From contig NZ_BAFR01000107.1 of the NCBI RefSeq assembly GCF_000308435.1, forward strand, positions 1 to 64,000: a stretch of 64,000 nucleotides of DNA, given 5' to 3'. The notes under the pieces are model-generated. The model saw nothing but the letters and a program-made list of their open reading frames with translations. It was not told where the DNA came from and did not search any database. A program made the translations under genes and the position numbers. This stretch comes from Nocardia araoensis NBRC 100135. Its GTDB lineage: Bacteria; Actinomycetota; Actinomycetes; Mycobacteriales; Mycobacteriaceae. This document shows positions 26,338 through 64,000 of this stretch, piece by piece. The stretch's first letter is position 1. Each line of letters opens with the position of its first letter.

Positions 26338-26344
26338 GGGAGCG

Positions 26345-45003: not shown

Positions 45004-45082
45004 TGCGGGTTCAGCTCCTTGGTATCGAGAAGGTCCTGGTCAGCGCGCCGAACCAAGACTGCTCGGTAACCGCCTTGTAGAC

Positions 45083-45109
45083 AAGTACCTACTATTTTGT
45101 GGGGTACTT
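45083..45109. promoter_or_regulatory. Inverted-repeat operator candidate for the HxlR regulator
   Basis: AAGTACC (45083-45089) and GGTACTT (45103-45109) form a perfect inverted repeat with 13 bases between, in the 140-base divergent intergenic region. HxlR-type regulators bind GTAC-containing inverted repeats of this shape. It overlaps the likely promoters of both genes. Confidence 0.6.
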
Positions 45110-45143
45110 ACCGAATGGTTTGTGAGCAGGTGGAGGGCCAGAG

Positions 45144-45654: not shown

Positions 45655-45672
45655 ATGTGGGTGGCTTCGCAG

Positions 45673-48600
45673 ATGTCGGATGATGGGTACGACCTACGGG
45701 TCTTGCTGACGCGGGCACTCCGCCGGATTCAGGAGTTGGAGGCCACGCCGCAGCGCGAGCCGATCGCCATCGTGGGGATCGGCTGTCGCTTTCCTGGCGG
45801 CGCGGAATCCCCGCAGCAGTACTGGGAACTGCTGTCCTCGGGCCGCGACGCCATCGTCGAGGCGCCGGAGAGCCGTTGGCCCGTAACGGATTCCGCGCCT
45901 CGACGGGCGCGGCGGCGGGCGGGGTTGCTGGCCGGTCCGATCGATGCCATGGACGCGGAGTTCTTCGGGATCGCACCGCGCGAAGCGGCGTCGATGGACC
46001 CGCAACAGCGGCTGGCGCTCGAAGTCGCCTGGGCGGCAATGGAGGACGCCGCTCTGGTGCCTGGCAGCGCGGCCGCGGCGCGCACCGGGGTGTTCCTCGG
46101 CGTCAGCTGGCAGGAGTACCAGCGCACGATCACCCCGGACTGGGTGAGTTCGGTGGATGCGCACACGCTGACGGGGACGATGTCGAGCATCGTGGCCGGG
46201 CGGGTGTCCTACGTGCTCGGGTTGCGCGGGCCTGCGGTGGCGATCGACACGGCGTGCTCGTCGTCGCTGGTAGCCGTGCATCAAGCGTGTGGCAGTCTGC
46301 GTGCGGGGGAGTGCGACGTCGCGTTGGCGGGCGGAGTGAACCTGCTGCAATCCGAGCTGACATCCGAGGCGCTGGCCCGCATGGGCGCGCTCTCTCCGGA
46401 CGGGCGCTGTCGTCCCTTCGATGCGCGCGCGAACGGGTATGTGCGTGGTGAGGGTGCGGGTGTCGTTGTGCTGAAGACGCTTTCGCGGGCGATCGCCGAC
46501 GGTGACGAGATCAGGGCGCTCGTCCGAGGCTCGAGCGTGAACCACGACGGTCGTTCCATGGGGCTGACCGCACCGAACCCGACGGCACAACGCGAGCTGC
46601 TGCGCGCCGCGTTGGTCGACGCGGGGTGCGAAGCCGATCGGATCGGCTACGTCGAGACGCACGGCACGGGCACGCCACTGGGTGATCCGATCGAAATCGA
46701 GGCGCTCTCACAGGTTCTCGGTGCGCCGCGGGTGGACGGTTCGGCGTGCTTGCTGGGTTCGGTGAAGTCGCAGATCGGGCACCTGGAGGCGGCCGCGGGC
46801 ATCGCCGGGCTGATCAAGGTGGTGCTGCAACTGGAGCACGAACGCATCCCGCGTCAGCATGAGTTCGCCACGATGAACCCGAAGATCAGGCTCGACGGCA
46901 CGGCGCTGGCGGTGCCGACCGACGATGTCACTTGGCCGAGCGCGCGGCAGCCGCGCATGGCAGGGGTGAGTTCGTTCGGTTTCGCGGGCACCAATGCACA
47001 TGTGATCGTGGAGGAGGCACCCGAGCCGGCATCGCGTCCCGCAGTCAATGGCCCTGTGTTACTTGCGCTTTCGGCACGCACGCCGTCGGCCCTGGACGCG
47101 CTGGCCCGCCGCTACGCGGAGCAGTTGGACCGGCAGGGTATGCCGCTCGCCGATGTGGCCGCCACCGCGGCACTGGGACGCACGCATTTCGCCCACCGCC
47201 GAGCGGTCGTGGCGGGAATGGCCGAGGAGGCGGCGCGCAAGCTGGCGACACCTCTGGATCGGTCGGCCGATCCGAATTCGGGGACGCCACGGGTCGCGAT
47301 GCTGTTCACCGGGCAGGGCGCCCAGTACGCGGGGATGGGCGCGACGCTCGACCGCAAATATCCGGTCTTCCGCGCGGCGCTCGACCGTTGCGACGAGCTG
47401 CTCGGACCGCTGTCCGGCGGGATGCGTCTTCGGTCGGTGCTGTTCGACGGGCACGAAGACATGCTTGCCCGTACCGAGTACGCGCAACCAGCCCTGTTCG
47501 CGTTCGAATGGGCCTGCGCCGAGATGTGGTCGGCGTTCGGGATCCGCCCCGATGTCGTGCTGGGGCACAGCCTCGGTGAACTGGTCGCGGCGACCGTCGC
47601 GGGGGTGTTCGATCTCGCTACCGGCTTACGTCTGGCTGCCGAACGTGGCCGGTTGATGCAGGCCGTGGCGCGACAAGGGGCGATGGCGGCGGTGTTCGCC
47701 GCGCCCGGGCAGTTCGAAACGCTGCTGAACGAACTCGCGGCAAGTGTGTCGGTGGCCGCGGTCAACAGCCCTGGACAATTCGTCGTGTCCGGAACCGCGG
47801 ACGCGGTGCGTCGAGTTGTGCGCGCTGCCGAGGAACGGTCCATCCGTGCCGTGCGGCTGCCCGGGTCGACGGCGTTCCATTCACCCCTGTTGGATCCGAT
47901 GCTGGACGACTTCGAGTCCAGGGTCGCCGAATTGGTGCCCGTCCCGCATGCGGCGGCGATTCCGCTGGTGTCGAACGTCACCGGCGCGCTGATCGACGGT
48001 CCTATGGATGCCGCGTACTGGCGCGCGCACGCCCGAGGCACCGTTCGCTTCGCCGAAGGTGTGCGCTCGGCCGCCGAGTCGGGCGTGGATGTCTACCTCG
48101 AGGTGGGACCGCATCCGGTGTTGCTGGAATTCGGACGGCAGGCAGACCCCGACGCCTTGTGGGTACCGAGTATCCGCCGGACCTCCGTCGACGACGAACT
48201 GCTGCTGACCGGGCTCGGCGAAATGTATTGCGCCGGCGCCGAAATCGACTGGAACGCAGTGATTCCCCGGGATGCGCGCAGACGCAACGGCCTGCCCACC
48301 TACCCCTTCGAACGAGAGCGGGTCTTTGTGCCGATCGAGAGCGCCTCGCCGAGCACCGGATACCTCGCCGAGCATCGATTCCGCGACCGTGCGGTGGTGC
48401 CCGCGGCGGAACTCGCGCTGCGCGCGGTGCGTGCGGCCGGAGGCGCCGACCATGAGCTGATCGACTTCGTCGCCGCGCGACCGGTGCCGCTGGAGGAATT
48501 GGCCGAACCGCTGATGTCCGATGCGGGCGACCGCACCGAGGTGCGGTTCCAGATCGACGACCCGGCGGTCACCGCGGTGTCCGCGGCGGTTCGAGCCGCC

Positions 48601-51600
48601 ACGAACCGACCCCGCGATTCCGATGAACTGTCCACGGCTCGGCTCGCGCTGTCCACCGAGGCGAATGCCGCTGATTTCTACCGCCGCTGTGCGGACGGCG
48701 GACTGACCTTCGGCCCGCGATTCCGCTGGATCACGCGGCTGCAATCCGGTGAAGGCCGCATTCTCGCCGAACTGCGGCGCCCGGCGGAACTCGCCGACGA
48801 ACCGGACGCCTGGCTGCCGTGTCTGCTCGACGCCGCGATCCAGACCGGTCTGGCGCTGGTGGCCGGAGACGGCGACGCGGCTCGACTGCCGGTGGGCATC
48901 GGCCGTCTGCGCCTGTCCGGCCGGGACGCGGGTGCAACGGCGTGGGCGCTGGCCGAGAGCACCGGCCGCACGGTCCGTCTCACGGTCTTCGATACCGCCG
49001 GTGCGGTGGTCTGCGAGATCGACGACGTATGGTTCGCCGAATCCGGCACTGCCGAGCGGTCGCGGGATCGAGATCGCCTGTCCGGCCTCACTCACCGTCC
49101 GACCTGGGAACCTGCCGCGCTGTCGCCGAGCGGACGGGCGCCCGCCGCCGCGCTGGTGGTCGGCGTCGGGCAGCAGGCGGACCTGCTCGCCACCGCGTTG
49201 CGCGCCGCGGGCACCGACGCGGTGGCGGTGGATCGGACGACGGATCCCGGCGTGTGGCCCGACGGCAACCGGGCGGTGATCTATCTCGCCGACATCGAAG
49301 CGGACGACAGCGCCGAAGCGGCGCGGGTGGAAACGCGATTCGCCCTCGCCGTGGTGCAACGGATGGCCCGGACGGTGTCCGACGCACCGTTGTACCTGGT
49401 GACCATGGGGGCGACCGGCGCGCTGCCCGGGGAAACCATGCGCCCGGCCGCCGCGACACTGTGGGGGCTGGGCGCGGTGGCGCGCACCGAACTGCCCGAA
49501 TTGCGCTGCCGCTTGATCGATCTGCCCGCGGGCGCCCGCTGCGATGACCACCGCCTGGTGCACGAAATCCGCTCCGGCGCTGCGGAATCCGCAGTCGCTC
49601 TGCGCGGGCGACGCCGTTACGCGATGCGGATGCAGCCCTCCGACGATCTGGGCGCTGCGCCGGAGCTGGATCGTGGCGGTGCGTATCTGGTCACCGGCGG
49701 GCGCGGAGCGCTGGGGTTGACCGCCGCACGCACGCTGGCCGAAGCCGGTGCGGGCACGGTCGTCCTGGCCGGTCGCAGCGACGCCACCCCGCGAGACGAG
49801 CGGGAGATGGCGCGGATCGCCGCCCTCGGCGCGCGTGTGGAAACCGTGGTGGTCGACGTCGAAGACCGCAATGCGTTGTCCCGCCTGCTCAGCCGCTTCG
49901 GCGCGGAGTTGCCGAGGCTGGCCGGGGTCGTGCACTGCGCGGGTGTTCTGGACGACGCCCTGCTGTTCGAGCAGACTCCCGCGCACATCGACCGGGTCTT
50001 CGCCGGAAAGGTCGCGGGCGCATGGCACCTGCACGAGCTGACCGCGGACCGGCCGCTCGATCTGTTCGTGCTGTTCTCGTCGGTCAGTGCCGTGGTGGGC
50101 ACCGCCGGGCAAGGTAATTACGCCGCGGCGAACGCGTATCTCGATGCCCTCGCCCGCCTGCGGTCGGCGCAGGGACTGGCTGCCGTGAGCATCGCGTGGG
50201 GGCCGTGGGCGGGCACCGGCATGGCCGAAGGGCTGAGCGACGCTGCCCGCCGGGCATGGAAACGCCACGGCGTCGGCGAACTGGCCGCCGAGGACGGTGC
50301 CCGAGCGCTGCGCTCGCTGCTGTCGGCGGAGAGCGTCGTCGCGGTGTTCCCCGCCGCTACCGAGGTTCCCGCGGAGCCGGAGACGATCGCCCGAGTGGAG
50401 GGCCAGGAAGCGCGCGATCCGGCGGAGCTGCTGGAACTGGTACGCACCCACGCCATGACGGCACTCGGCCGCACGACAACGGTTTCCGACCGCACGCCGC
50501 TGCGCGAACTCGGACTCGATTCGATGATGGCGGTCGAGCTGCGCAACGCGCTGTCCGCCGATCTGGGCGTGCGACTTCCCGCGACGCTGCTGTTCGATCA
50601 TCCGACCGTCGCCGCGGTATCCGAGGAGATCGCCCGGCTCGGAGCGACATCGGCCCTCCGCCCCACGGCACGCGAGCAGGCCGAACGACGACCGACCACG
50701 CGCACCTCCGAGCAGCTCACAGCCCCGGTGTACCCAACCGAACTCCCGGTTACACCTAGTACACCGAACGTGTCCCAACTCACATCCCGCGAATCCGCCG
50801 CTGGCCCGGATGATTACGCCGACGCGATCGCGATCATCGGCGTCGGCTGCCGCTATCCCGGCGGCGTCAACGGGCCCGCCGATCTGTGGCGACTGCTGGC
50901 CACCGAAACCGACGCGGTGACCGAGGTACCCGCGCACCGCTGGGACGCGGAGGCCTTCTTCGATCCCGACCCTGATGCCGACGGCAAGACCTACACGCGC
51001 TGGGGCGGGTTCGTCGACGGCGTCGAGGATTTCGATGCCGGATTCTTCGACATCTCGGTCGGCGAGGCGCGCATGCTGGACCCGCAGCAGCGGCTGCTGC
51101 TGGAAACGGCGTGGGAGGCGCTCGAACACGCCGGTTATCCGGCGGGCCGCCTGGAGGGCAGCCGGACCGGCGTTTTCGTCGGACTGATGTCCAACGATTA
51201 CGCCGAGCGGATGGCGCGGGCCGATGTCGCGCCGGATGCGTGGTTCGGCACCGGCAATCTCTCCAGCGTCGCGTCCGGTCGGCTGTCGTATTTCCTCGGC
51301 GCGCAGGGGCCGAGCCTGACCATCGACACCGCGTGCTCGTCATCGCTGGTGACCGTGCACACGGCGGTGCGCAGCCTGCGCAGCGGCGAATGTGATCTGG
51401 CTCTGGCCGGCGGAGCGACCGTGGTGTTGACGCCCTCACTCGACATCTATTTCGCGCGGGCGCGGGGCTTGGCCGCCGACGGCCGGTGCAAGAGCTTCGA
51501 CGCACGCGCCGACGGCGTCGTCTGGAGTGACGGCGCGGGAATGCTCGTGCTCAAGCGACTGGCGGACGCGCGGCGCGACGGTGATCGGGTGCTGGGGCTG

Positions 51601-54600
51601 GTACGCGGCTCGGCGGTGAATTCCGACGGCCGCAGCCAGGGGCTGAGCGCACCCAACGGCCCGGCGCAGGAAAGGGTCATCCGCGCGGCGCTCGCGGACG
51701 CGGCGGTCGAGGCGGAGGACATCGACTACGTCGAGACACACGGCACCGGCACGGCGCTCGGTGATCCGATCGAAGTGAATGCCCTGGCCGCAGCGCTGGG
51801 CCAAGGGCGAACCGACTCCACGCCGCTGTGGATCGGATCGGTGAAGTCCAATCTGGGGCACACCCAGGCGGCGGCGGGCATCGCGAACATCATCAAGGTG
51901 ATCGAGTCGATGCGGCACGAGCGCATTCCCGCCTCGCTGCACTTCCGCTCGGGCAATCCGCACATCGACTGGGATTCGGTCGCGATCCGAGTGGCCGCCG
52001 AGGAGCGGCCGTGGCGGCGTTCACGGCGGCCGCGGCGGGCGGGGGTGAGCGCGTTCGGGATCAGCGGGACGAACGCGCACGTGGTGATCGAAGAACCGCC
52101 GCAGGTGTCGGAGACCGATGCCGACGACGATGCCGGGCCCTACCTGCTGGTCCTGTCGGCGAAGAACGCCGCTGCCCTGCGTGAGCTGGCGGCTCGCTAT
52201 CGAGATCTCCTGGTCGCGCACCCCGAGACCGTGTTGGGGGATCTGTGCGCGTGCGCCGCGGTGGGCCGCACCCACTTCGGCGAGCGTGTGGCGATCGGTT
52301 TCGACACTGCCGCGCAGTTGCGCGCCGCGCTCGAGAACATCGCCTCCGGAGTCACCGCGAGCGGGTCGGTCGCCGAGATTGCGAGCGGGCCGGTCGAACT
52401 GGCTCGCCGGTACGTCGATGGCGCTGAGATCGACTGGGCGGCGGTCTATTCCGGTCGCCGGTGGCGTCATGTCGATCTGCCGACATACCCGTTTCAGCGC
52501 AAACGGCACTGGCTGGAGCTGGCGTCGCGCCCGGACGACGCTGACTTGTCACACACCGTCCGGCTTGCCCCGGAGATGTTCGCAGGGCATCGGCTGAGTG
52601 GTGTGGCGACGGTGCCCGCAGCGTGGCTGTGCGCTCAGCTGAACGAGATCGCCACTCGACTCCCCGGCGCATGGGACGTCACGGGGCTGCGGCTGATCAC
52701 GCCGCTGCAGGTCACCGCCGAAGCGGTGGTGCGGGTCACGGTCGAACCCGGCCCGGACGGCCACGACGTGCGCTTCGTTCGCTCCGATGATGCCCAGCGG
52801 GGCTTCGCTCAGGCGAAACTCGCCGTCGCTCAGGCGGATTCGGTGCAGTCGTATGAGGCTGTGGTCGCTGCTTCCGACGCGCGCGTGTGGCCTGCCTACT
52901 ACGACGCTCTCGCTCGGCTGGGCCTGGACCTGGGTCCGGACTACCGCTGTGCCCTCGAATTCCGGCGGATCAGCGACACCGAGGCGGAGACGGTGTTCCG
53001 TTCCTCCGGGGACGGCACCGTACTCGATCCGATCCTGCTCGACGCCTGTCTGCACAGCATCGTGGTGACAGCTACCGGGGGCGGGGAGTTGTTCCTGCCC
53101 TCCGAGATAAATCGTGTTCGATTCCTCGGCAACCCGACGGCTGGGGATACGACCGTACGGTGCCGGGTGCGGGTGACCGAACGGGGGACGCGGGTCATCG
53201 TCGGCGACGCCACGCTGTACACGTCCTCCGGGCGACCGCTCGCCAGTGTGCAAGGTGCGAGTCTCCTGGCGGCCAAGGTGGACGTCGCGCCGAAACCCTC
53301 TGCTGCGGAGGCCGACTCGACGAGGCTCGCACGTCTGATGCACCACGTGGAGTGGATTCCTGCCGAGGGTGGCGTACGGGACGAACACGCAGGGCACTGG
53401 CTCGTCTTCGGTGACGGGCCGGTCGGTGACGCCGTCGCCGCCGGACTGAGCGCCCGCGGCGCCGAAGTCGTGGTCGTTCGCCCGGAGGACGGGCTTGCGG
53501 ACGATTCGTTCGCATCCTCTGCGGCAGCCCGTTCGTTCCAGGGCATCGTCTTCGCATGGACGGAAGCGTCGGCCCGGACTCGCATCGAGGCCGCCCTGCG
53601 GTTGACGCGCGCTCTGGACTCGACAGCGCAGCGGCCCGGCGCGTTGTGGTTGCTCACCGTGAACGCCCAGCACGTCGGCTCGGCCGACCGGCCGGATCCC
53701 GATCAAGCTCTGCTCTGGGGATTCGGACGCACGCTGGCCACCGAGCACCCCGAGTTCGGGTGTCGATTGCTGGACCTGCCCGCGCAGCCCGTTGGGGATG
53801 GCGCGTCGATCGCCGACGGATTGCTCAGCGGCCGCGCCGCCGGCGAGTTCGCCCTGCGCGACGGTCGGTGGCTGACCGCGCGCATCGCCGAAGGACTCGC
53901 CTCCTCCGGCGACTACCGATTGGTCGCGGATCGTTCCGGCGATTTCGAACGGATGCGGTTGGCGCCGGGCGCCCGGCGCGCACCGGCGGACGGCGAGATC
54001 GAGATCAGCGTCGCCGCTACCGGTCTCAATGCCCACGACCTCTGGGTGGCCTCCGGCATTCATCCGGACGGGGCCGTGCCGATGGGTTCGGAATGCGCGG
54101 GCCGGGTCACCGCGGTCGGTGCCGGGGTAGAGCAGTTCGCGGTCGGTGACCGCGTCGTCGCCTTGGCGGCTGACAGTTTCGCCCGCCACGTGACGGTGAA
54201 CCAGGGCATGGTGGCCCGGCTACCGGACGATCTGTCCTTCGCCGACGGCGCAACCGTGCCGTACGCCTTCACCGCCGCCTGGCACGCGCTGTTCGACCTC
54301 GGTGGACTGCGCGCCGGGGACCGGGTGCTCGTCCACGGTTCCGCCGACGGCATCGGCATGGCCGTGGTCCAGCTCGCCGCGCACGCGGGTGCGCAGGTGT
54401 GCGCGACCGCCGCCCTGTGTCGCTGGGCGCGGAACGTGGGTCTTCCGGTCACGCAGATTCACACTTGGCGTGGCCACGAGTTGAGCGAACGGGTCCGGGC
54501 GGTGACCGAGGGGCACGGGGTCGATGTCGTCGTGCACACCTCGGGTGACGGCTTCGCCGGACAGGTCTCCGAAATATTGCACCCGGGTGGGCGATTCGTC

Positions 54601-57600
54601 GAGATCGTCGACCCGGTGCAGACCGGCGCACTGCGTCGGCAGGCGGATGTCGACCATCGGACGTTCGATCCCGCCGCTGTCGACCGGGGTCGGTCGGGCG
54701 CGATCCTGCGGAGCGTCATGGCGCTGTTCGAGCAGCGTGCCTTGACCGCGCTGCCGCACGCGGCGCATGGGATCGATCGTGCCGCCGAGGCGTTCCGCGC
54801 CATGTCGCAACGGGATCATCCCGGTCGCGTCGTCCTGCTCGGCAAAGATGTCCCGGTCGCCGCGCGCGACGACCGGTTGCCCGATGGCACCTACCTGGTG
54901 ACCGGAGGGTTCGGCGGGCTCGGCGCGGCGGCCGCGCGCTGGCTGGCCGATCGTGGGGCCCGGCATCTGGTGCTGGTCGGCAGGCGCGCGCCGGATTCGG
55001 CAGGCGAACGGCTGCTGGAATCGCTGCGTGCCACCGGCGTCCGGGTGACGGCGCGGCAGGCGGATGTCGGCGACCGCGCGGCCGTCGCGGCACTGCTGCA
55101 CGGGATTACGGAATCCGGATCGCCGCCTCTGCGCGGCGTGGTGCACTGCGCGGGAGTGCTCGACGACGGTGTGGTGAGTGAGCAGAGCTGGTCGCGGTTC
55201 GAGACGGTGCTCGGACCCAAATATCTTGCGGCGCGTCACCTCGACGAGCTCACCCGCGACCAATCGTTGGAACTCTTCGTCACCTACTCCTCCGTGGCGG
55301 GCGTGCTCGGCACCCCCGGCCAGGCGAACTACGCCGCGGCGAACGCGGCATTGGACGCGCTGGCCTGGCGGCGGCGTGCGGAGGGGCTTCCCGCGCTGAG
55401 CATCGGGTGGGGACCGTTCGCCGATGTCGGAATGGCCGCCGACCGGCCGGAGGTCACCGCGCGGCTCGTGCGACGCGGGCTGCCTCCGCTGCACGCGAGC
55501 GACGCCGCCGCGGCGCTGGACCACCTCCTCCGGCATGACAGCACTGCCCCTGGCGTCTACGAATTCGTGCCGGAGCGGTGGTACGGGCAGCGCGCGCCGC
55601 AGGTTGCGACGGCCGCGCCTCGGCCGGTCCGGCCGGAGACCACCATGGCGCCACGAACGGGGCTCCCTGCGGATGATCTCGCTCCGTGGGAGGCGCTCGT
55701 CCAACGCGTCGCCATGCGGGTGCTCGATCGGCCCGCAGAACTGGACCCGGAGCTGCCGCTGCACGATACGGGGGTCGACTCCCTGACGGGAATGGAGTTG
55801 CGGGCGGCACTCGCCGCCGAAGTCGGAATGCCGCTGCCCGCCGGGCTCGTCTTCGACTACCCGACCGTGCGTGAGATGGCGCGGTTCCTGCACCGCAAGG
55901 GCGCTTCCGCTCGCACCGGAGACGCGGTGGAGACCGCCGACCGCGTGCGCTCGGCCGCTGCGGACGTGTCCTCTTTCGCGGCGGCTGCCGTTGCAGCGGA
56001 AACACTTTCACTCTCGACGGACGCACCTTCGTTTTCGACAAGCACGCCCTCGTTCGCGGCTGATGTGCCCTCGTTCGCGGCGGACGCACCCCCGCTGGCG
56101 ACCGACGTGCCCTCCTCCGCGGCCGATGTGCGCTCGTTTGCAGCGGATGCACCCCCGTTCGCGACCGACGCGCCCCCGGCCGCGACCGACCTGCCCTCGC
56201 TCACCGCCGTTACATCCCCGCTCTCCGCCGACACGCCCTGGCTCGCGCCGCAGTCCCCCTTCCCGGTGGCGACTTCGCCGGAACAGCCCGCGAGACAAGA
56301 TGCTTCGACCGGTACCGACACCGGAAGCGACCAGCACGACGACCCGATCGTCATCGTCGGGATGAGCTGCCGCTTCCCCGGCGGGGTGCGCACACCGGAG
56401 GACTTCTGGGACCTGCTGTGGCACGGACGAGACGCGATCACCGAAGTGCCGCCGCAGCGCTGGGATATCGACGACTACTACGACCCCGACCCGGCAGCCC
56501 TGGGCACGATGTACACCCGCTGGGGCGGTTTCGTCGACGGCGCCGACGAATTCGATCCCGCGTTCTTCGGGATCGGCGCGGCGGAGGCACGCGCGATGGA
56601 CCCGCAGCAACGGCTGCTGCTGGAGACCAGCTGGGAGGCGCTGGAGCGCTCGGGCCGCGCGCCCGGTGCGCTGGCGGGCAGCCGTACCGGTGTGTTCGTC
56701 GGACTGTGTTTCAGCGAGTATCCGGCGACGCCGATCCGAGCCGACGATCCGACCGCGATCGGGGCGTACTCGGTGATCGGTTCGGCGCCGAGCGTCGCGG
56801 CCGGGCGCTTGGCCTACGTTCTCGGGCTGCAAGGCCCGGCGATGACGTTGGACACGGCATGCTCGTCGTCGCTGGTGGCGCTGCAGGCCGCCGCGGACGG
56901 GCTACGTGCGGGCCGTTGCGATCTGGCGCTGGTGGGCGGGGTGAATTTGCAGCTGGCTCCGGAGACGACCATCGGTTTCTGCCGCCTGGCCTCGCTGTCG
57001 CCCGACGGACGCTCGCGCGCGTTCGACGCCGACGCCAACGGCTACGTTCGTGCCGACGGCTGCGGCGTGCTGGTGCTGACCCGGTTGTCGCAGGCCCGGC
57101 GCAACGGCGATCGGGTGCTGGCGATCGTGCGCGGCGTCGCGGTGAACCACGATGGGCGGTCCAATGGCCTCACCGCGCCCAACGGCCCGGCCCAGCAGCG
57201 CGTCATCACCGACGCGCTGGAACGGGCGGGCCTGCGGCCGGACGCGGTGGACTACGTCGAGACCCACGGCACCGGCACCCCGCTCGGCGACCCGATCGAG
57301 GCCACCGCGCTGGCCGAGGTATACGGCGCGAACCGCGCACAGCCGCTGCTGATCGGGTCGGTCAAGACCAATATCGGGCACACCGAGGCGGCGGCCGGTG
57401 TCGCGGGAGTCATCAAGGCCGTGCTCATGTTGCGGCACCGCCGAATCCCACCGAGCCTGCACTTCCACACCCCGAACCCGCTGATCGACTGGGCCGGACT
57501 GCCGTTGGAAGTCGTGCGCGAGGCGCGGGACTGGCCGCGCACCGAGCACGCACCGGCGATCGGAGTCAGCTCCTTCGGGATGAGCGGCACCAACGCGCAC

Positions 57601-60600
57601 GTCATCCTGGCCCAGGGCGATCCGGCGCCCGCGCCACGACCGGAATCGCCGGCCGCGCAGGTGCTCGTCCTCTCCGCACGCGACGAGACCGCCCTCGCCG
57701 ACATCGCGCGCCGCTGGGCAGACGAAATCGAGTCGGCGCGCGCGGCATTCGGCGACCTGGCCTACACCGCCGCGACCGCGCGCACCCACTTCGAAGAACG
57801 ACTCGCGGTGGTCGCCGACAGCGGCGCCGCCGCGGCGCGAGACCTGCGTGCGCCGATTCCGATCCGCGGCCGGGTGGAGCGAACCGCGCGCGCGAAGGTG
57901 GCGCTGCTGTTCACCGGGCAGGGATCGCAGTACCCGGGCATGGCGCGGGAGCTGTTCGACTCCGAACCGGTCTTCCGGGACGCGCTGCGGCGCTGTGACG
58001 CGGTGCTGGGCCCGATCGCGGACGGTGTCGGGCTGATCGACGCCGTCTACGGCGATCACGGTCCGGAGTCGCTGCGTCGCACGGTGTTCACCCAGCCGGT
58101 GTTGTTCGCGGTCGAGTGGGCGTTGTGGGAGCTGTGGCGGGCGTGGGGGATCGCCCCGGCGGCGGTGCTCGGCCACAGCGTCGGGGAATACGTCGCGGCC
58201 TGCGCCGCGGGCGCGATGACCGTGGAGGACGCCCTGCGGCTGGTCGCCGTGCGTGGTCGCCTGATGCAGCGCCTGCCGGACGGAGGCGGGATGATGGCCG
58301 TCGACGCGTCCGCCGAGCAGGTCGCGCCGCTGGTCGCGCGGCATGAGCCCGCGCTGTCGATCGCGGGGTACAACGGACCGGCTCAGGTGGTGGTCGCCGG
58401 ACCGCGAGCCGCACTCGATCTGCTGCGCGAGCAGTTGTCGGCCGACGGTATACGGTCCGCCGATCTCACCGTCTCGCATGCCTTCCATTCCGCGGCGATG
58501 GACCCGATCCTCGACGACCTCGCCGTGGCAGCGTCCCGCGCGACGATGACCGATCCCGCGATTCCGCTGATCTCCAACCTCACTGGTGCGCCGCTGCGGC
58601 CGGGCGAACTCGGCCCGCGGTACTGGGCGCGGCATGCGCGTCAGCCGGTGCGGTTCGCGCAGGGCCTGCGGGCGATGGCCGAGCTGGGGATCGACCAGTT
58701 CCTCGAAATCGGACCGCATCCGACGTTGTCGGCGCTCGGCGGGCGGGTACTGGGCGACTCCGCGCGGTTCATCGCGTCGCTGCGACGAGGCCGTGGTGAT
58801 CGAGAGACGATGATGACGGCGCTGGGCAACCTGTATGTCGGGGGCGTGGCGGTGGACTGGGAGCAAGTGCACCGGCCACACGATCGTCGGCGGGTGCCGG
58901 GCCCGACGTATCCCTTCCAGCGGCAACGCTATTGGGTCGAGTCGCACCTCGCGGCGGTGCCGCCGTCGGTCGACGTGGATGCCGTATCCGAGGCGAGTCT
59001 CCGGGTACGACGCGGGATCGCTGCGGCTGCCGACGAACAGGAAGAAGACCCTTCTTCACCTGAAGGCACAACCTATTTCAACCTGACACTCGGGCCGGAC
59101 TCTCCGTCGTACCTGGCCGACCATGTCGTGGATCGGACTGTTGTCGTGCCGGGCGCCTGGTTCGTCGCCACCATCGCCGACATCGCGCGCGGACTGCTCG
59201 CCGATGACGTCGTCGCCATCGAAGACCTCGTGATCACCAGCGGACTCGCGCTGACCGGCCCGCAGCCGGTACGGATCGTCTTCGAGCCGACCGGGGACGG
59301 ATTCGCGGTGCACGTGCAGACGGAAAGCTCCGGTACGCACGCGCGTGCCCAGGTCCGCACCGGAACGCACCGGCTTCCGGACGGTGCCGGTCTCGCGGAA
59401 ATTCTCGACCACTGCCCGGAACACCTCGCCCCGGAGGACTTCTACCAACGGCTGGCCCGCGCTGGGCTGCCTTACGGACCGGCGTTCCGCCGTGTCGTCG
59501 GCCTGCGCCTGGGTCGGCACGAAGCCTTGGCCACACTGTCGGATTTCGACACCGATACCGGGACGGTGCATCCGGCCCTGCTGGACGCGGCGTTCCAAGC
59601 CACCTACGCGGCGATGTCGCCGCGGGCCGACGAGCAGACGTGGGTGCCGTTCGCGGTGGACCAGGTCCTCGCCTCGGCCGCGGTGGGCACCGTTCGATTC
59701 GGCCATGTGCGCGTCCTCGAGCAGACGCCGCAGCTGTGTGTCGCGGATGTTCGACTGCTCGATGAGGAGGGTTCTCCGGTGCTGGTCGCGAACGGATTGC
59801 GAGTGATGCCCGCGCCTACGCCGAACTCGGCCGGGCCGTCGTCCCACGAACGATCGGTCGCGCACACCTACCGCATCGACTGGCGGGAGACCGGCTCGGC
59901 GGCGCCGGCCTCGGCGGCCGGGCGCTGGCTGATCATCGGTGCGCCAGGAAGCTTCGCCGACAGCCTCGCGGAGGATTTGCGGGCGCGCGGCGGGGAGTGC
60001 GTGATCGCCAGGCCCGGAACCGGTTTCACGTTCCGCGCCGCGAACGAGTTCGAGATCGACCTCGGCGTGCCCGCGGCGGTGCGCGCGCTGCTCGGCGCGG
60101 TGGACGACGGTCGCGCGCCGCTGCGCGGAATCGTCTCCGCGGTCGCGCTGTCGGAGCGGAACGCGCCCGCACCTGTGGCCGCGGAACGTCTGGTGGTGGG
60201 TGCACTGCACCTCGTGCAGGCCGCTGCGCTGGCCGGGGAACCGGCGGTGTGGCTGCTCACCCGTCACGGCCAGCGGGTCGAGCCCGCCGATCGGGTCGCG
60301 CCGCAGCAATCGGCGCTGTGGGGTTTCGCCCGCAGCGCGCAGCTGGAACATCGCGCGATCGGCTGTCACGTGATCGATATCGATCAGGTGACCGATGTTC
60401 GTTCCGTGGTCGACGCGCTCGTGACGCCCTCGGCGCCGCGGCAGCTCGCGCTGCGCCAGGGACGTCGTCGTGTGCCGCGCCTCGTACCGTTGACCGTCGT
60501 GCCCGGCGAGCCGACGGCCACGGGCGGGACGGTGCTGATCACCGGCGGTCTCGGTGGCGTCGGCTTGCGGCTGGCCCGCTGGTTCGTCGACCGCGGTCGG

Positions 60601-63600
60601 CCGGACATAGTGCTCGCCGGGAGATCCGCACCCGATGCCCGAGCGCAGGCCGTCATCGCCGAATTGCGCGGGCGCGGCGCTCGGATCGAGGCGCGGTCGC
60701 TCGATGTCGCCGATCGCGCCGCCGTAGCGGCCACACTGGATTGGATCGACCGCGAGTTGCCGCCGCTGGCTGGCGTGGCGCATCTGGCCGGGGTGCTCGA
60801 CGACGGCGTGATCGCCGAGCAGACGGCCGCCCGGGTCGGGCGGGTGCTGGCGCCGAAGACGTTCGGGGCATGGCACCTGCACGAGCTGACCGCGGGTCGG
60901 GCCTTGGAATTCTTCCTGCTGTTCTCCTCGGCCGCGGCGGTGGTCGGCTTGCCGGGTCAGTCCGGCTATGCCGCCGCCAACGCCTTCCTCGACGGTATGG
61001 CCGAGTCGCGCGGGGCGTCGGGCTCGCCCGCGCTGTCGATCGCGTGGGGCCCGTGGGCGGACACCGGAATGGTCGAGCGGCTCGACAGCGCCGCGGTGCG
61101 GCGGCTGAACCGACGCGGCTACGGCCTGCTGCGTCCCGAGCACGCTTTCGACACGCTCGACCGCCTGATCGGCTCCGGGCCGGCGACGGTCACCACGATG
61201 CCGCTCACCTTGTCGGGAGTGTCCGACGTCGACGTGCCGGACGTGTTGCTGGATTCGGTAGCGACCACTGTCGAAAAGGATTCCAGCACAGCCGCTTCCG
61301 CTGATCTGTCCGCGAGGATGGAAGCGCTCGTGCGGCGCTGCCTCGGGTTGGCGCCCGGGGATGATCTCGATCGGCCGCTGCACGAACTCGGGTTGGACTC
61401 GGTCGCGGCACTCGAGATTCGCGACGAGTTGTCGCGCTCCAGCGGTCACCGCCTGCCCGCCACATTGGCTTTCGAGTATCCCACCCCGCGCGCGGTGGTC
61501 GGCCTGCTGGTGCGGCTGGGCTCCGCGGATGCGCCGTCCGTGCCGCCGACGATCGATAGACATGGCGATTCCTCCGATCGGACGGCGGCGCGGACGCCCG
61601 CTCCCACGCTGAAGGCCGAGGTGCCCGTGGGGATTGCCGTCTCTACCGGCGGCTCTCCCGCGAACGACCGGCAGCCCGTGACTCCACGCGCGTCAGCCGA
61701 CCCGTCCGCGCCGATCGTGCCCAGCGCCCGCCAGCGGGCGGCCGGAAACACGTCGGCCGACTCTTCCGCATCGCTCGACACACCGACCGCGGCCGCCATC
61801 CCGAACACCGATCGCCACGCCGACGCGGCGGGGGACATCGCGATCGTGGGTGTCAGCGGACGCTATCCGGGCGCGGACGGGCTCGACGAGTATTGGCGGG
61901 TGCTGGTCGAGGGACGCGACTGCGTCACCGAGATCCCGTCGGACCGCTGGGACCACGCCCGCTATTTCGTCCCGGACCGGCACAACCCGTTCACCGCCTA
62001 CACCAAGTGGGGCGGGTTCCTCGACGACGTCGACTGCTTCGATCCGCTGTTCTTCGCCATCTCCCCGCGCGAAGCGGAAATCCTGGACCCGCAGGAGCGG
62101 CTGTTCCTGCAAACCGCCTGGGCCGCACTGGAAGACTCCGGACATTCCCGGGCCGACCTCGCTCGCGGCGGCCTGCGCCCCGAGCAGGCCGGTGTGTTCG
62201 TCGGCGTCATGTGGGGCACCTACCAGATGTTCGGGGCCGAGGAGTCCCGCCTCGGGCGCGGCACGCTGCCGGGGTCGACGTTCTGGAGCATCCCGAACCG
62301 CGTCTCGCACGCCTTGGACTTCCAAGGACCGAGTATGGCCGTGGACACCGCGTGCTCGTCCTCGCTCACCGCGCTGCACCTGGCCTGCCAGAGCATCCGC
62401 ACCGGCGAATGCAGGCTGGCGGTGGTCGGCGGCGTCAACCTGTCGTTGCACCCGTACAAGTTCGTCGCGCTGAGCCAGGGGCAGTTCGCCTCTACCGACG
62501 GCCGCTGCCGCTCCTTCGGCGCAGGGGGCGACGGGTATGTGGCCAGCGAGGGTGTCGGGGCGCTGGTGCTGCGGCCGCTGGCCGACGCCGAAGCCGACGG
62601 CGACACCATCTACGGCGTCATCAAGGGCACCGCGATCAATCACGGCGGCCGGGTCAACGGGTTCACGGTGCCCAATCCCGACGTGCAGGCGGCGGTGATC
62701 CGCTCGGCGCTGCGTGTCGGTGGCGTGGACCCGGCGTCGGTGTCCTATGTCGAAGCGCACGGCACCGGCACCGCGCTGGGTGACCCGATCGAAATCGCCG
62801 GTCTGGCGAAGGTTTTCGGTTCGTCCGGCGTGGCCGAGTTGCCGATCGGTTCGGTGAAGTCGAATGTCGGCCACCTCGAGGCGGCGGCCGGCGTCGCGGC
62901 GCTGACGAAGGTGCTGCTGCAACTGCGCCACGGCACCATCGTGCCGTCGCTGCACGCCACGCCGCCCAATCCGAACATCGACTTCGCGGCCACACCGTTC
63001 CGGATCCCGACCCGGCCGCTGCCGTGGCCCGGCGGAGATCCGGCGCGTCCGCGCCGGGCGACGGTGAGTTCGTTCGGAGCGGGTGGGGCCAACGCCAACG
63101 TGGTGATCGAGGAGTACGTGGACCGCAGGCCGCAGACGCCGTTCAGCGGCGGTCAGGTCGTCCCGGTCTCCGCGCGCGACCGCGATCGGCTCGCGGAGTA
63201 TGTCGCCGCGCTGGACCGTTTCCTCGCCGGGCAGGAGCCGAACCTCGCCGATCTGGCCTACACCATGCAGGTGGGTCGGCAGGCGGGCGGTGCGCGCGCC
63301 GCGTTCGTCGCACGCGACATCGGCCGGTTGCGCGCCGCCGTCCGCGCCTGGGTCGATGACGTACCCGGCGCCAGGTCGTGCCGTGATGCGGCGGAGGACT
63401 CTCGGATCGCGCGCTGGCTCGACGGTGCGGACATCGATTGGGCCACCGTCCGCGACCCGGGGCCTCGGCGCCGTATTCCCGCGCCGACCTATCCGTTCGC
63501 CCGTGAGCGGTACTGGATTCCGGACGTCGCGCCCGGCCCGCAGCCCGATGCCGCCGCGGGGCATCAGTCCGCATCAGGGGCGGACAACACCTGGACCCCG

Positions 63601-64000
63601 CAGCCCACGTCGACGCCAGGATCCGGCCCGATCACGCAACCTACGCTGAATGGAAAGGCCACGCTCATATCGGAATCCATTCCACCGCAACGGGTATCAG
63701 CACAATCGTTGGCACTCGAGCCGTTGTCGCCACGTCCATCGGGCGGATCCGCAACGAAGGCCGGACTGCCGGAGTCTGCCTCGGCCCCCCGACCCACAGC
63801 AGCCCAACGGTTGCTGGTTCCGGTCTGGCGAGAGGCTCCGCTGCCCAGCGGTGACCTTCGTTCGCGCCGCGCCCTGCTGGTGTACGACGCGCGGACCCCG
63901 CAGCACCTGGTGGAGGCATTGGAGGCCGCCGCAGGCGATCCGGGTCGTCTCGTGCGGCTCTCGGAGCTGCCGGGCGATCTGCACCGCGACGACTTCGGGG
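45673..64000 (+). CDS. Giant modular type I polyketide synthase (partial at 3' end)
   Basis: One frame stays open from ATG 45673 to the window edge, over 6,100 residues; ATG 45655 is an in-frame alternative, but 45673 has a GGTGG upstream. Module order: KS-AT-DH-KR-ACP, then KS-DH-ER-KR-ACP with no AT, then KS-AT-DH-KR-ACP, then KS followed by a linker and a KR start with no AT. All four KS have the Cys-His-His triad. There is no loading domain: the N-terminus is a short helical docking-like segment (YDLRVLLTRALRRIQELE), so it extends a chain made by another PKS. Both ATs have malonyl-type motifs. All three complete KRs have the LDD motif of B-type ketoreductases. The product is unknown. Confidence 0.93.
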   Translation, partial: MSDDGYDLRVLLTRALRRIQELEATPQREPIAIVGIGCRFPGGAESPQQYWELLSSGRDAIVEAPESRWPVTDSAPRRARRRAGLLAGPIDAMDAEFFGIAPREAASMDPQQRLALEVAWAAMEDAALVPGSAAAARTGVFLGVSWQEYQRTITPDWVSSVDAHTLTGTMSSIVAGRVSYVLGLRGPAVAIDTACSSSLVAVHQACGSLRAGECDVALAGGVNLLQSELTSEALARMGALSPDGRCRPFDARANGYVRGEGAGVVVLKTLSRAIADGDEIRALVRGSSVNHDGRSMGLTAPNPTAQRELLRAALVDAGCEADRIGYVETHGTGTPLGDPIEIEALSQVLGAPRVDGSACLLGSVKSQIGHLEAAAGIAGLIKVVLQLEHERIPRQHEFATMNPKIRLDGTALAVPTDDVTWPSARQPRMAGVSSFGFAGTNAHVIVEEAPEPASRPAVNGPVLLALSARTPSALDALARRYAEQLDRQGMPLADVAATAALGRTHFAHRRAVVAGMAEEAARKLATPLDRSADPNSGTPRVAMLFTGQGAQYAGMGATLDRKYPVFRAALDRCDELLGPLSGGMRLRSVLFDGHEDMLARTEYAQPALFAFEWACAEMWSAFGIRPDVVLGHSLGELVAATVAGVFDLATGLRLAAERGRLMQAVARQGAMAAVFAAPGQFETLLNELAASVSVAAVNSPGQFVVSGTADAVRRVVRAAEERSIRAVRLPGSTAFHSPLLDPMLDDFESRVAELVPVPHAAAIPLVSNVTGALIDGPMDAAYWRAHARGTVRFAEGVRSAAESGVDVYLEVGPHPVLLEFGRQADPDALWVPSIRRTSVDDELLLTGLGEMYCAGAEIDWNAVIPRDARRRNGLPTYPFERERVFVPIESASPSTGYLAEHRFRDRAVVPAAELALRAVRAAGGADHELIDFVAARPVPLEELAEPLMSDAGDRTEVRFQIDDPAVTAVSAAVRAATNRPRDSDELSTARLALSTEANAADFYRRCADGGLTFGPRFRWITRLQSGEGRILAELRRPAELADEPDAWLPCLLDAAIQTGLALVAGDGDAARLPVGIGRLRLSGRDAGATAWALAESTGRTVRLTVFDTAGAVVCEIDDVWFAESGTAERSRDRDRLSGLTHRPTWEPAALSPSGRAPAAALVVGVGQQADLLATALRAAGTDAVAVDRTTDPGVWPDGNRAVIYLADIEADDSAEAARVETRFALAVVQRMARTVSDAPLYLVTMGATGALPGETMRPAAATLWGLGAVARTELPELRCRLIDLPAGARCDDHRLVHEIRSGAAESAVALRGRRRYAMRMQPSDDLGAAPELDRGGAYLVTGGRGALGLTAARTLAEAGAGTVVLAGRSDATPRDEREMARIAALGARVETVVVDVEDRNALSRLLSRFGAELPRLAGVVHCAGVLDDALLFEQTPAHIDRVFAGKVAGAWHLHELTADRPLDLFVLFSSVSAVVGTAGQGNYAAANAYLDALARLRSAQGLAAVSIAWGPWAGTGMAEGLSDAARRAWKRHGVGELAAEDGARALRSLLSAESVVAVFPAATEVPAEPETIARVEGQEARDPAELLELVRTHAMTALGRTTTVSDRTPLRELGLDSMMAVELRNALSADLGVRLPATLLFDHPTVAAVSEEIARLGATSALRPTAREQAERRPTTRTSEQLTAPVYPTELPVTPSTPNVSQLTSRESAAGPDDYADAIAIIGVGCRYPGGVNGPADLWRLLATETDAVTEVPAHRWDAEAFFDPDPDADGKTYTRWGGFVDGVEDFDAGFFDISVGEARMLDPQQRLLLETAWEALEHAGYPAGRLEGSRTGVFVGLMSNDYAERMARADVAPDAWFGTGNLSSVASGRLSYFLGAQGPSLTIDTACSSSLVTVHTAVRSLRSGECDLALAGGATVVLTPSLDIYFARARGLAADGRCKSFDARADGVVWSDGAGMLVLKRLADARRDGDRVLGLVRGSAVNSDGRSQGLSAPNGPAQERVIRAALADAAVEAEDIDYVETHGTGTALGDPIEVNALAAALGQGRTDSTPLWIGSVKSNLGHTQAAAGIANIIKVIESMRHERIPASLHFRSGNPHIDWDSVAIRVAAEERPWRRSRRPRRAGVSAFGISGTNAHVVIEEPPQVSETDADDDAGPYLLVLSAKNAAALRELAARYRDLLVAHPETVLGDLCACAAVGRTHFGERVAIGFDTAAQLRAALENIASGVTASGSVAEIASGPVELARRYVDGAEIDWAAVYSGRRWRHVDLPTYPFQRKRHWLELASRPDDADLSHTVRLAPEMFAGHRLSGVATVPAAWLCAQLNEIATRLPGAWDVTGLRLITPLQVTAEAVVRVTVEPGPDGHDVRFVRSDDAQRGFAQAKLAVAQADSVQSYEAVVAASDARVWPAYYDALARLGLDLGPDYRCALEFRRISDTEAETVFRSSGDGTVLDPILLDACLHSIVVTATGGGELFLPSEINRVRFLGNPTAGDTTVRCRVRVTERGTRVIVGDATLYTSSGRPLASVQGASLLAAKVDVAPKPSAAEADSTRLARLMHHVEWIPAEGGVRDEHAGHWLVFGDGPVGDAVAAGLSARGAEVVVVRPEDGLADDSFASSAAARSFQGIVFAWTEASARTRIEAALRLTRALDSTAQRPGALWLLTVNAQHVGSADRPDPDQALLWGFGRTLATEHPEFGCRLLDLPAQPVGDGASIADGLLSGRAAGEFALRDGRWLTARIAEGLASSGDYRLVADRSGDFERMRLAPGARRAPADGEIEISVAATGLNAHDLWVASGIHPDGAVPMGSECAGRVTAVGAGVEQFAVGDRVVALAADSFARHVTVNQGMVARLPDDLSFADGATVPYAFTAAWHALFDLGGLRAGDRVLVHGSADGIGMAVVQLAAHAGAQVCATAALCRWARNVGLPVTQIHTWRGHELSERVRAVTEGHGVDVVVHTSGDGFAGQVSEILHPGGRFVEIVDPVQTGALRRQADVDHRTFDPAAVDRGRSGAILRSVMALFEQRALTALPHAAHGIDRAAEAFRAMSQRDHPGRVVLLGKDVPVAARDDRLPDGTYLVTGGFGGLGAAAARWLADRGARHLVLVGRRAPDSAGERLLESLRATGVRVTARQADVGDRAAVAALLHGITESGSPPLRGVVHCAGVLDDGVVSEQSWSRFETVLGPKYLAARHLDELTRDQSLELFVTYSSVAGVLGTPGQANYAAANAALDALAWRRRAEGLPALSIGWGPFADVGMAADRPEVTARLVRRGLPPLHASDAAAALDHLLRHDSTAPGVYEFVPERWYGQRAPQVATAAPRPVRPETTMAPRTGLPADDLAPWEALVQRVAMRVLDRPAELDPELPLHDTGVDSLTGMELRAALAAEVGMPLPAGLVFDYPTVREMARFLHRKGASARTGDAVETADRVRSAAADVSSFAAAAVAAETLSLSTDAPSFSTSTPSFAADVPSFAADAPPLATDVPSSAADVRSFAADAPPFATDAPPAATDLPSLTAVTSPLSADTPWLAPQSPFPVATSPEQPARQDASTGTDTGSDQHDDPIVIVGMSCRFPGGVRTPEDFWDLLWHGRDAITEVPPQRWDIDDYYDPDPAALGTMYTRWGGFVDGADEFDPAFFGIGAAEARAMDPQQRLLLETSWEALERSGRAPGALAGSRTGVFVGLCFSEYPATPIRADDPTAIGAYSVIGSAPSVAAGRLAYVLGLQGPAMTLDTACSSSLVALQAAADGLRAGRCDLALVGGVNLQLAPETTIGFCRLASLSPDGRSRAFDADANGYVRADGCGVLVLTRLSQARRNGDRVLAIVRGVAVNHDGRSNGLTAPNGPAQQRVITDALERAGLRPDAVDYVETHGTGTPLGDPIEATALAEVYGANRAQPLLIGSVKTNIGHTEAAAGVAGVIKAVLMLRHRRIPPSLHFHTPNPLIDWAGLPLEVVREARDWPRTEHAPAIGVSSFGMSGTNAHVILAQGDPAPAPRPESPAAQVLVLSARDETALADIARRWADEIESARAAFGDLAYTAATARTHFEERLAVVADSGAAAARDLRAPIPIRGRVERTARAKVALLFTGQGSQYPGMARELFDSEPVFRDALRRCDAVLGPIADGVGLIDAVYGDHGPESLRRTVFTQPVLFAVEWALWELWRAWGIAPAAVLGHSVGEYVAACAAGAMTVEDALRLVAVRGRLMQRLPDGGGMMAVDASAEQVAPLVARHEPALSIAGYNGPAQVVVAGPRAALDLLREQLSADGIRSADLTVSHAFHSAAMDPILDDLAVAASRATMTDPAIPLISNLTGAPLRPGELGPRYWARHARQPVRFAQGLRAMAELGIDQFLEIGPHPTLSALGGRVLGDSARFIASLRRGRGDRETMMTALGNLYVGGVAVDWEQVHRPHDRRRVPGPTYPFQRQRYWVESHLAAVPPSVDVDAVSEASLRVRRGIAAAADEQEEDPSSPEGTTYFNLTLGPDSPSYLADHVVDRTVVVPGAWFVATIADIARGLLADDVVAIEDLVITSGLALTGPQPVRIVFEPTGDGFAVHVQTESSGTHARAQVRTGTHRLPDGAGLAEILDHCPEHLAPEDFYQRLARAGLPYGPAFRRVVGLRLGRHEALATLSDFDTDTGTVHPALLDAAFQATYAAMSPRADEQTWVPFAVDQVLASAAVGTVRFGHVRVLEQTPQLCVADVRLLDEEGSPVLVANGLRVMPAPTPNSAGPSSHERSVAHTYRIDWRETGSAAPASAAGRWLIIGAPGSFADSLAEDLRARGGECVIARPGTGFTFRAANEFEIDLGVPAAVRALLGAVDDGRAPLRGIVSAVALSERNAPAPVAAERLVVGALHLVQAAALAGEPAVWLLTRHGQRVEPADRVAPQQSALWGFARSAQLEHRAIGCHVIDIDQVTDVRSVVDALVTPSAPRQLALRQGRRRVPRLVPLTVVPGEPTATGGTVLITGGLGGVGLRLARWFVDRGRPDIVLAGRSAPDARAQAVIAELRGRGARIEARSLDVADRAAVAATLDWIDRELPPLAGVAHLAGVLDDGVIAEQTAARVGRVLAPKTFGAWHLHELTAGRALEFFLLFSSAAAVVGLPGQSGYAAANAFLDGMAESRGASGSPALSIAWGPWADTGMVERLDSAAVRRLNRRGYGLLRPEHAFDTLDRLIGSGPATVTTMPLTLSGVSDVDVPDVLLDSVATTVEKDSSTAASADLSARMEALVRRCLGLAPGDDLDRPLHELGLDSVAALEIRDELSRSSGHRLPATLAFEYPTPRAVVGLLVRLGSADAPSVPPTIDRHGDSSDRTAARTPAPTLKAEVPVGIAVSTGGSPANDRQPVTPRASADPSAPIVPSARQRAAGNTSADSSASLDTPTAAAIPNTDRHADAAGDIAIVGVSGRYPGADGLDEYWRVLVEGRDCVTEIPSDRWDHARYFVPDRHNPFTAYTKWGGFLDDVDCFDPLFFAISPREAEILDPQERLFLQTAWAALEDSGHSRADLARGGLRPEQAGVFVGVMWGTYQMFGAEESRLGRGTLPGSTFWSIPNRVSHALDFQGPSMAVDTACSSSLTALHLACQSIRTGECRLAVVGGVNLSLHPYKFVALSQGQFASTDGRCRSFGAGGDGYVASEGVGALVLRPLADAEADGDTIYGVIKGTAINHGGRVNGFTVPNPDVQAAVIRSALRVGGVDPASVSYVEAHGTGTALGDPIEIAGLAKVFGSSGVAELPIGSVKSNVGHLEAAAGVAALTKVLLQLRHGTIVPSLHATPPNPNIDFAATPFRIPTRPLPWPGGDPARPRRATVSSFGAGGANANVVIEEYVDRRPQTPFSGGQVVPVSARDRDRLAEYVAALDRFLAGQEPNLADLAYTMQVGRQAGGARAAFVARDIGRLRAAVRAWVDDVPGARSCRDAAEDSRIARWLDGADIDWATVRDPGPRRRIPAPTYPFARERYWIPDVAPGPQPDAAAGHQSASGADNTWTPQPTSTPGSGPITQPTLNGKATLISESIPPQRVSAQSLALEPLSPRPSGGSATKAGLPESASAPRPTAAQRLLVPVWREAPLPSGDLRSRRALLVYDARTPQHLVEALEAAAGDPGRLVRLSELPGDLHRDDFG
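45760..50640 (+). other. PKS module 1: KS-AT-DH-KR-ACP
   Basis: KS about 45760-47020 (Cys codon at 46255, DTACSSS; ETHGTG and QIGHLEAAAG hold the histidines). AT about 47290-48130 with GHSLGE and TAFHSP, a malonyl-like motif. DH about 48355-49060: the catalytic His is in AEHRFRDRAVVP (the motif Gly is missing) and the Asp in LLDAAIQ. KR about 49680-50240 with VVHCAGVLDD and YAAANAYLD. ACP about 50430-50610 with phosphopantetheine Ser in LGLDSMMAVEL. The module should add a C2 unit reduced to an alkene if the DH is active, or a hydroxyl if not. Confidence 0.85.
50815..55890 (+). other. PKS module 2: KS-DH-ER-KR-ACP, AT absent
   Basis: KS about 50815-52100 (DTACSSS near 51333, ETHGTGTALG, NLGHTQAAAG). 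Then only AT-flanking linker remains (YLLVLSAKNAAALRELAARY, later YVDGAEIDWAAVY and VDLPTYPFQRKRHW); no GHSxG or AT core exists in 52100-52545. DH about 52555-53280 has a perfect HRLSGVATVP motif and LLDACLH. ER about 53910-54835 has NADPH loop HGSADGIGMAVVQLA. KR about 54885-55435 has VVHCAGVLDDG. ACP about 55685-55875 has TGVDSLTGMEL. The domain set predicts full reduction, with malonyl supplied in trans. Confidence 0.85.
56335..61510 (+). other. PKS module 3: KS-AT-DH-KR-ACP
   Basis: KS about 56335-57610 (LDTACSSS, ETHGTGTPLG, NIGHTEAAAG). AT about 57895-58790 with GHSVGE and HAFHSAAM, the malonyl-CoA signature. DH about 59070-59810 with catalytic His in LADHVVDRTVVVP (motif Gly replaced), LPYGPAFR and LLDAAFQ. 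KR about 60520-61080 with VAHLAGVLDDG and YAAANAFLD. ACP about 61310-61505 with LGLDSVAALEI. It is preceded by a 140-residue Ala/Pro/Ser/Thr-rich linker. Confidence 0.85.
61830..64000 (+). other. PKS module 4 (partial): trans-AT-type KS, no AT, KR start
   Basis: KS about 61830-63110 begins IAIVGVSGRYPGADGLDEYW and carries TEIPSDRWDH, FFAISPREAEILDPQERLFL, NRVSHALDFQGPSMAVDTAC, LSQGQFASTDGRCRSFGAGG and FTVPNPDVQAAVIRSAL, a wording typical of trans-AT ketosynthases. A post-KS linker with ARWLDGADIDWATVRD and PAPTYPFARERYW follows directly, with no AT. From about 63800 a KR-like structural subdomain begins (LLVPVWREAPL, RRALLVYDARTPQ). The window ends inside it. Confidence 0.8.

Follow-up and report, generated by a model that had tools for sequence, protein, structure and literature searches.

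A hybrid cis/trans-acyltransferase polyketide synthase with a conserved AT-less second module in Nocardia

Domain organisation of the two polyketide synthase proteins and the discrete acyltransferase

The DNA analysed here, referred to below as the window, covers positions 1-64000 (64,000 nucleotides) of the 193,364-bp contig NZ_BAFR01000107.1 of Nocardia araoensis NBRC 100135 and carries the 5′ part of a modular polyketide synthase (PKS) gene. The reading frame opens at 45655, continues beyond the window end and encodes a protein of 7138 amino acids (aa), to which Pfam profiles were applied in ten pieces. Modules 1 and 3 both consist of ketosynthase (KS), acyltransferase (AT), dehydratase (DH), ketoreductase (KR) and acyl carrier protein (ACP) domains. 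Module 2 contains KS, DH, enoylreductase (ER), KR and ACP domains and module 4 contains KS, KR and ACP domains, both without an AT, and the protein terminates with KS5. The features of the gene within the window are the following.

45655..63999, + strand: 5′ part of the PKS gene, modules 1-4 and KS5 (whole frame: contig 45655-67071, 7138 aa)
45757..46866, + strand: KS1, cis-AT type (Pfam, KS tree)
47302..48144, + strand: AT1, with GHSLGE and TAFHS (Pfam, motifs)
48316..49035, + strand: DH1 (Pfam)
49678..50211, + strand: KR1 (Pfam)
50440..50628, + strand: ACP1 (Pfam)
50821..51945, + strand: KS2, cis-AT type, Cys-His-His intact, AT-less (Pfam, KS tree, approximately unbiased (AU) test, motifs)
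52141..52512, + strand: KS-AT linker of module 2 fused to the post-AT linker (LPTYPFQRKRHW), AT gone at ~52400 (Pfam, BLASTP)
52492..53265, + strand: DH2 (Pfam, motifs)
53989..54837, + strand: ER2, probably inactive, NFRD having lost its F, MYP its Y and KW its K (Pfam, alignment)
54886..55422, + strand: KR2 (Pfam)
55699..55890, + strand: ACP2 (Pfam)
56341..57468, + strand: KS3, cis-AT type (Pfam, KS tree)
57907..58851, + strand: AT3, with GHSVGE and HAFHS (Pfam, motifs)
59071..59814, + strand: DH3 (Pfam)
60526..61062, + strand: KR3 (Pfam)
61321..61509, + strand: ACP3, end of the cis-AT half (Pfam)
61834..62958, + strand: KS4, trans-AT type, start of the trans-AT half (Pfam, KS tree, AU test)
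63169..63516, + strand: linker behind KS4, RhiE-like, to APTYPFARERYW, AT-less (Pfam, motif spacing)

One protein thus combines AT-bearing and AT-less modules. Acyl_transf_1 was found behind KS1 (47302-48144) and KS3 (57907-58851), while the same Pfam search of the 7138-aa protein returned no AT profile match between KS2 and DH2 or behind KS4. The KS end motif and the post-AT motif are 447 aa apart in module 1 and 450 aa in module 3, against 149 aa in module 2 and 144 aa in module 4. AT3 carries HAFHS, which contains the malonyl-specific motif HAFH (PMC11907408), and the TAFHS of AT1 is one letter off that motif.

The next gene (contig 67068-79025) encodes a second PKS protein of 3985 aa, in which Pfam recognised DH-ACP-KR, KS6-methyltransferase-ACP, KS7-ACP, KS8-ACP and a terminal NAD_binding_4 reductase. 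Since KS5 closes the first protein and DH-ACP-KR opens the second, module 5 is split over two polypeptides. No AT profile match was obtained in modules 4-8. Directly behind the second PKS gene, and starting about 15 kb beyond the window end, contig 79022-80776 encodes a discrete AT (GGHSLGEY) fused to a thioesterase (585 aa). It is followed by sugar genes for a family-2 glycosyltransferase, two GDP-mannose-dehydratase-like proteins, a C-methyltransferase, a MycE-like methyltransferase, an EryCIII-like glycosyltransferase and a GT87 protein. A first-pass annotation, made from the letters of the window, had described a protein mixing the two kinds of module with malonyl-type ATs in modules 1 and 3. 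It had also proposed that the line needs a discrete AT, to be sought in the genome and past position 64000, and had named a profile match to an AT in the KS2-DH2 stretch or just behind KS4 as evidence against its view. The Pfam results bear out the description and leave both stretches without an AT, and the AT-thioesterase supplies the enzyme that had been postulated.

Affinities of the ketosynthases

To place the KS domains, trees were built from 18 sources (the window stretch and 17 further loci), with KS pieces of fewer than 380 residues excluded beforehand. Each KS was labelled by the domain behind it, a KS at a frame end counting as being without AT. Plasmid pTML1 (L053) and a Bacillus velezensis record whose cluster is headed by fabD (L054), which we take for trans-AT clusters, presumably those of thiomarinol and macrolactin respectively, served as references. 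Other members included an AT-less Micromonospora line (L047) and cis-AT lines from the N. araoensis genome itself (L055-L057). In a first tree of 59 rows, KS4, KS6 and KS8 fell inside a set of 15 rows, all without AT (support 100/99), and KS7 joined pTML1 and Micromonospora KSs in a four-row set (100/99). KS2 grouped in an 18-row set with cis-AT KSs of its own genome (98/99).

With the KS rows at L053 residues 31 and 308, both long, taken out, a second tree of 57 rows showed a single split (100/99) of 26 rows against 31. The 26-row side holds KS4-KS8 and the pTML1 and B. velezensis KSs; none of its members is followed by an AT, four of them (KS5 included) being at frame ends. The other side holds KS1-KS3 and comprises 24 KSs with a cis AT, six without and one cut off at the frame end. 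KS2 is nested within it (100/98). Forcing four KS2 rows onto the trans side was rejected by an AU test (p 0.0068), as was forcing four KS4 rows off it (p 6e-6); both tests were run on the second tree with groups chosen after its inspection. KS4-KS8 are consequently on the trans-AT side, and KS2 is on the cis side though it is AT-less.

The frame-end KS of the Micromonospora line (M. tulbaghiae) pairs with KS5 in the tree (100/100). That AT-less PKS shows the same split, a KS ending one frame and DH-ACP-KR-KS opening the next.

Based on its wording, the first-pass annotation had assigned KS4 to the trans-AT type and KS1 and KS3 to the cis-AT type. The wording is present in the translation (FFAISPREAEILDPQERLF, GGRVNGFTVPNPDVQ), and the tree and, for KS4, the AU test agree with the assignment. 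The AT-less module 2 is a case apart from KS4, as KS2 belongs to the cis side and its module lost the AT. The annotation had further suggested a check of AT-docking linkers behind KS2 and KS4, and the outcome was divided: a RhiE-like profile scored best behind KS4, and also behind KS6, whereas a CurL-like profile scored best behind KS2, as it did behind KS1 and KS3. Because the linkers behind KS7 and KS8 score slightly higher with the CurL-like than with the RhiE-like profile, this test is soft and not decisive alone.

Loss of the acyltransferase in module 2 and its conservation in Nocardia

When the corresponding region of module 2 was compared by BLASTP with that of module 1, the match covered residues 1-109 and then 410-452; against module 3 it covered residues 1-107 and then 413-464. 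Module 2, cis-type by its KS, has thus lost its AT, while both flanking linkers are kept and joined. The catalytic motifs of KS2, DH2, KR2 and ACP2 are kept. ER2 differs: in an alignment to the SpnB ER (3slk), NFRD lacks its F, MYP its Y and KW its K in all 20 loci examined, while the ER of another Nocardia line (L063) retains all three residues. The tyrosine and lysine of ER domains have a catalytic role, and ER2 is probably dead. Loss of the N in the ER NSL motif was also considered as a mark of a dead ER and dropped, as two of the 20 rows retain it.

A 500-aa query spanning the junction of KS2 and DH2 was run against 150 Nocardia genomes. All of them gave some match, and 21, including the genome of origin, were set apart (E of at most 2.3e-126, against 2.4e-69 for the next). 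In each of the 21, the match runs from KS2 through the junction without a large insert (query end at least 294, the post-AT motif ending at query position 286), and module 2 therefore has no AT in any of them. The order KS-DH-ER-KR-ACP was found in all 20 mapped loci, with gaps of 133-182 aa; two of these (L045 and L066), on contigs of equal length, probably come from one genome. At E values no higher than 1e-100, the AT-thioesterase was detected in 21 of the 150 genomes, exactly those that carry the PKS gene; in one draft (G018) it is on a different contig from the PKS. A pattern-seeded scan of 84,980 species gave 18 loci, of which 12, at 67-80% identity, are all from Nocardia and six, at 28-46%, from other genera. 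Named carriers include N. abscessus, N. exalbida, N. gamkensis, N. arthritidis, N. pneumoniae and N. asiatica. One locus (L059, genome G088) is a diverged form of the cluster whose module 1 gave no KR match in the domain search.

Two further Nocardia lines contain AT-less modules with a cis-type KS, both in genomes outside these 21. One lies at residues 984-2669 of L063 (genome G059) and has its ER motifs retained. In the other (L065 residues 670-1349, genome G145), a cis-type KS precedes an AT-less stretch and the next two modules have ATs. The FVHSGHSM stretch of this module looks like the remnant of a partly deleted AT.

Upstream of the PKS, the window contains genes of a bacteriophage exclusion (BREX) defence system at 16578-28474: BrxC (16578-20099), an Eco57I/N6 methylase (20116-23610), PglZ (23836-26337) and BrxL (26213-28474), the C-terminus of the BrxL frame also matching the phospholipase-D-like domain PF16565. 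Two short frames (15338-16581) directly precede them. Just upstream of the PKS, a TrwC-type relaxase with an AAA domain (35617-40377, - strand) and a large serine recombinase (42274-43974, + strand) hint that mobile DNA separates the BREX genes from the PKS cluster. A reductive-aminase-like gene and an HxlR regulator (44134-45494) lie directly upstream of the PKS.

A hybrid assembly line and the loading of module 2

We consider it very probable (roughly 0.88) that the locus encodes a hybrid cis/trans-AT modular PKS of the type of the nocardiosis-associated polyketide (NOCAP) synthase, modules 1-3 being of cis-AT and modules 4-8 of trans-AT descent, with the discrete AT loading modules 4-8 and most likely also ACP2. 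The line would then switch from cis to trans between ACP3 and KS4, within one polypeptide. AT1 and AT3 would put malonyl on their own ACPs, and the AT-thioesterase would load the ACPs of modules 4-8, which it presumably must serve because they are without an AT. Loading of ACP2 by the same enzyme would be the simplest reading; the discrete ATs KirCII and Dsz AT are described as complementing an AT-null DEBS, a cis-type module (PMC6164871). Provided that ER2 is dead, as it appears to be, modules 1-3 would build a triene, module 4, with only a KR, would leave a hydroxyl, and the split module 5 (DH, KR) would act iteratively to give a second triene. Module 6 would C-methylate, and modules 7 and 8 would leave ketones, yielding a C-methylated unreduced triketide. 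The terminal reductase would release an aldehyde, and ring closure of the last units would give a resorcylaldehyde. If the starter has two carbons and module 5 turns three times, the backbone amounts to 22 carbons, divided into a headgroup of 7 and a tail of 15, and the predicted tail has two trienes with CH2-CHOH between them.

The NOCAP synthase was reportedly described by Kuo in 2016 and Yuet in 2020, and the latter is said to give the NOCAP aglycone as a substituted resorcylaldehyde with a 15-carbon tail whose two trienes are parted by a hydroxyl. Its module 5 is likewise said (Guzman, 2021) to be split and to take three turns. By anatomy, the line appears to match this synthase: the host is a Nocardia, the line is trans-AT with a discrete AT, here adjoined by sugar genes, and module 5 is split over two polypeptides, as reported for NOCAP. 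Furthermore, the methyltransferase, the unreduced modules and the end reductase fit a resorcylaldehyde, and with a dead ER2 and three turns of module 5 the domain order would be consistent with the reported aglycone and its carbon count (7 + 15). A comparison of the second PKS protein with the PDB returned trans-AT KS structures; among the 60 of 138 matches listed, whose labels are molecule names that give no organism, none was labelled NOCAP or Nocardia. NOCAP is described as a nonamodular synthase from Nocardia strains of nocardiosis patients (PMC10394414) and as a trans-AT line in which module iteration is programmed (PMC10921412); its reconstitution has been achieved both in vitro and in E. 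coli (PMC11762266).

Several points weigh against this interpretation. Eight KS domains are present here, against the nine modules described for NOCAP (PMC10394414). KS1 begins at residue 35, and no loading domain was seen ahead of it, nor a ninth module in the two PKS genes. The likeness to NOCAP is one of domain anatomy and of descriptions. The first KS tree, in which the two very long rows were kept, left KS1, KS3 and KS5 unplaced. ACP2 is nearest to ACP1 and ACP3 (scores 132 and 108, against 96 for the best ACP of the trans half); the comparison yielded no hint that ACP2 is loaded in trans. Finally, the AT-less cis-type-KS modules of genomes G059 and G145 show that an AT-less module alone does not require the AT-thioesterase.

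The closeness of ACP2 to ACP1 and ACP3 and the two genomes without the AT-thioesterase also favour the strongest alternative, namely that not the discrete AT but AT1 or AT3 within the same polypeptide dimer, or else the primary-metabolism FabD, feeds module 2. A likely FabD, judged by size alone, is present (AT at C295:13931-14755, 367-aa frame), and an AT-deleted DEBS module is described as restored in a case involving coelicolor (PMC6164871). Co-inheritance of the discrete AT with the PKS gene in all 21 genomes speaks against this alternative, although weakly, since modules 4-8 alone would account for it; we regard such feeding as a minority possibility, with perhaps one chance in a few. A module 2 that is skipped, or acts as a pass-through unable to load an extender, would agree with its missing AT and probably dead ER2. 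Yet its KS, DH, KR and ACP motifs are intact and the module is retained in 21 of 21 genomes, and skipping it would produce a C20 chain, not one with the 15-carbon tail reported for the NOCAP aglycone, which makes this option improbable. The first-pass annotation had inferred that KS4 may have been recruited from a trans-AT cluster. Its trans-AT type, upheld by the tree and the AU test, agrees with such an origin, but recruitment of KS4 alone into a cis-AT line is very improbable, as KS4 starts a complete trans half in which KS5-KS8 belong to the same AT-less tree set and modules 4-8 give no AT profile match. An assembly or sequencing artefact, conceivable in a draft of 351 contigs, is ruled out by the contiguous AT-less junction in 20 other Nocardia genomes, some of them single-contig (G125, G017).

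Domain content and order, KS affinities, the conserved AT loss and the co-occurrence with a discrete AT show the assembly line to be a real hybrid, and a rare one. Its rarity, also asserted by the first-pass annotation, is in line with a survey in which both kinds of module occur in 122 PKSs and 351 PKS-NRPS (nonribosomal peptide synthetase) hybrids of 8799, about 5% (PMC10394414). Kirromycin synthase, the model for such lines, likewise joins cis- and trans-AT modules and has discrete ATs, but its cis-AT portion stands apart on a protein of its own, KirAVI (PMC5818483), whereas both kinds share a polypeptide here; it is moreover an NRPS hybrid, and the cis-type module with a lost AT is a feature of the Nocardia line. 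The alpiniamide line has AT-less modules plus one AT-bearing module, but its AT is confined to the loading module and it too is an NRPS hybrid (PMC6113372). AT-null DEBS resembles module 2 in being a cis-type module without a working AT that is served by a discrete AT (PMC6164871). It is engineered, whereas module 2, if loaded in trans, would be its natural counterpart.

As a system, the hybrid line is already known. Its AT-stripped, probably ER-dead module 2 is its least familiar part: in the excerpts of the literature searched, to which the primary NOCAP papers did not belong, we met no mention of its AT loss and dead ER. The junction of the two kinds of module is pinned to one linker (61510-61833). 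Whole-block recombination has been described as rare in cis-AT PKSs (PMC7930024) and was later reported for cyanobacterial cis-AT PKS/NRPS lines (PMC12184294). We give even odds to module 2 being a natural AT deletion, cleanly cut between the linkers, with the module now served by the discrete AT that arrived with the fused trans-AT half. If so, it would be a conserved natural case of the step that turns a cis-AT module AT-less, and that step may have recurred, given two more Nocardia lines with AT-less cis-type modules, one with an apparent AT remnant. Lying beside AT-bearing neighbours, this AT-stripped cis module may also allow one to ask directly what it takes for a cis-type module to be served by a discrete AT, a question of interest for PKS engineering.

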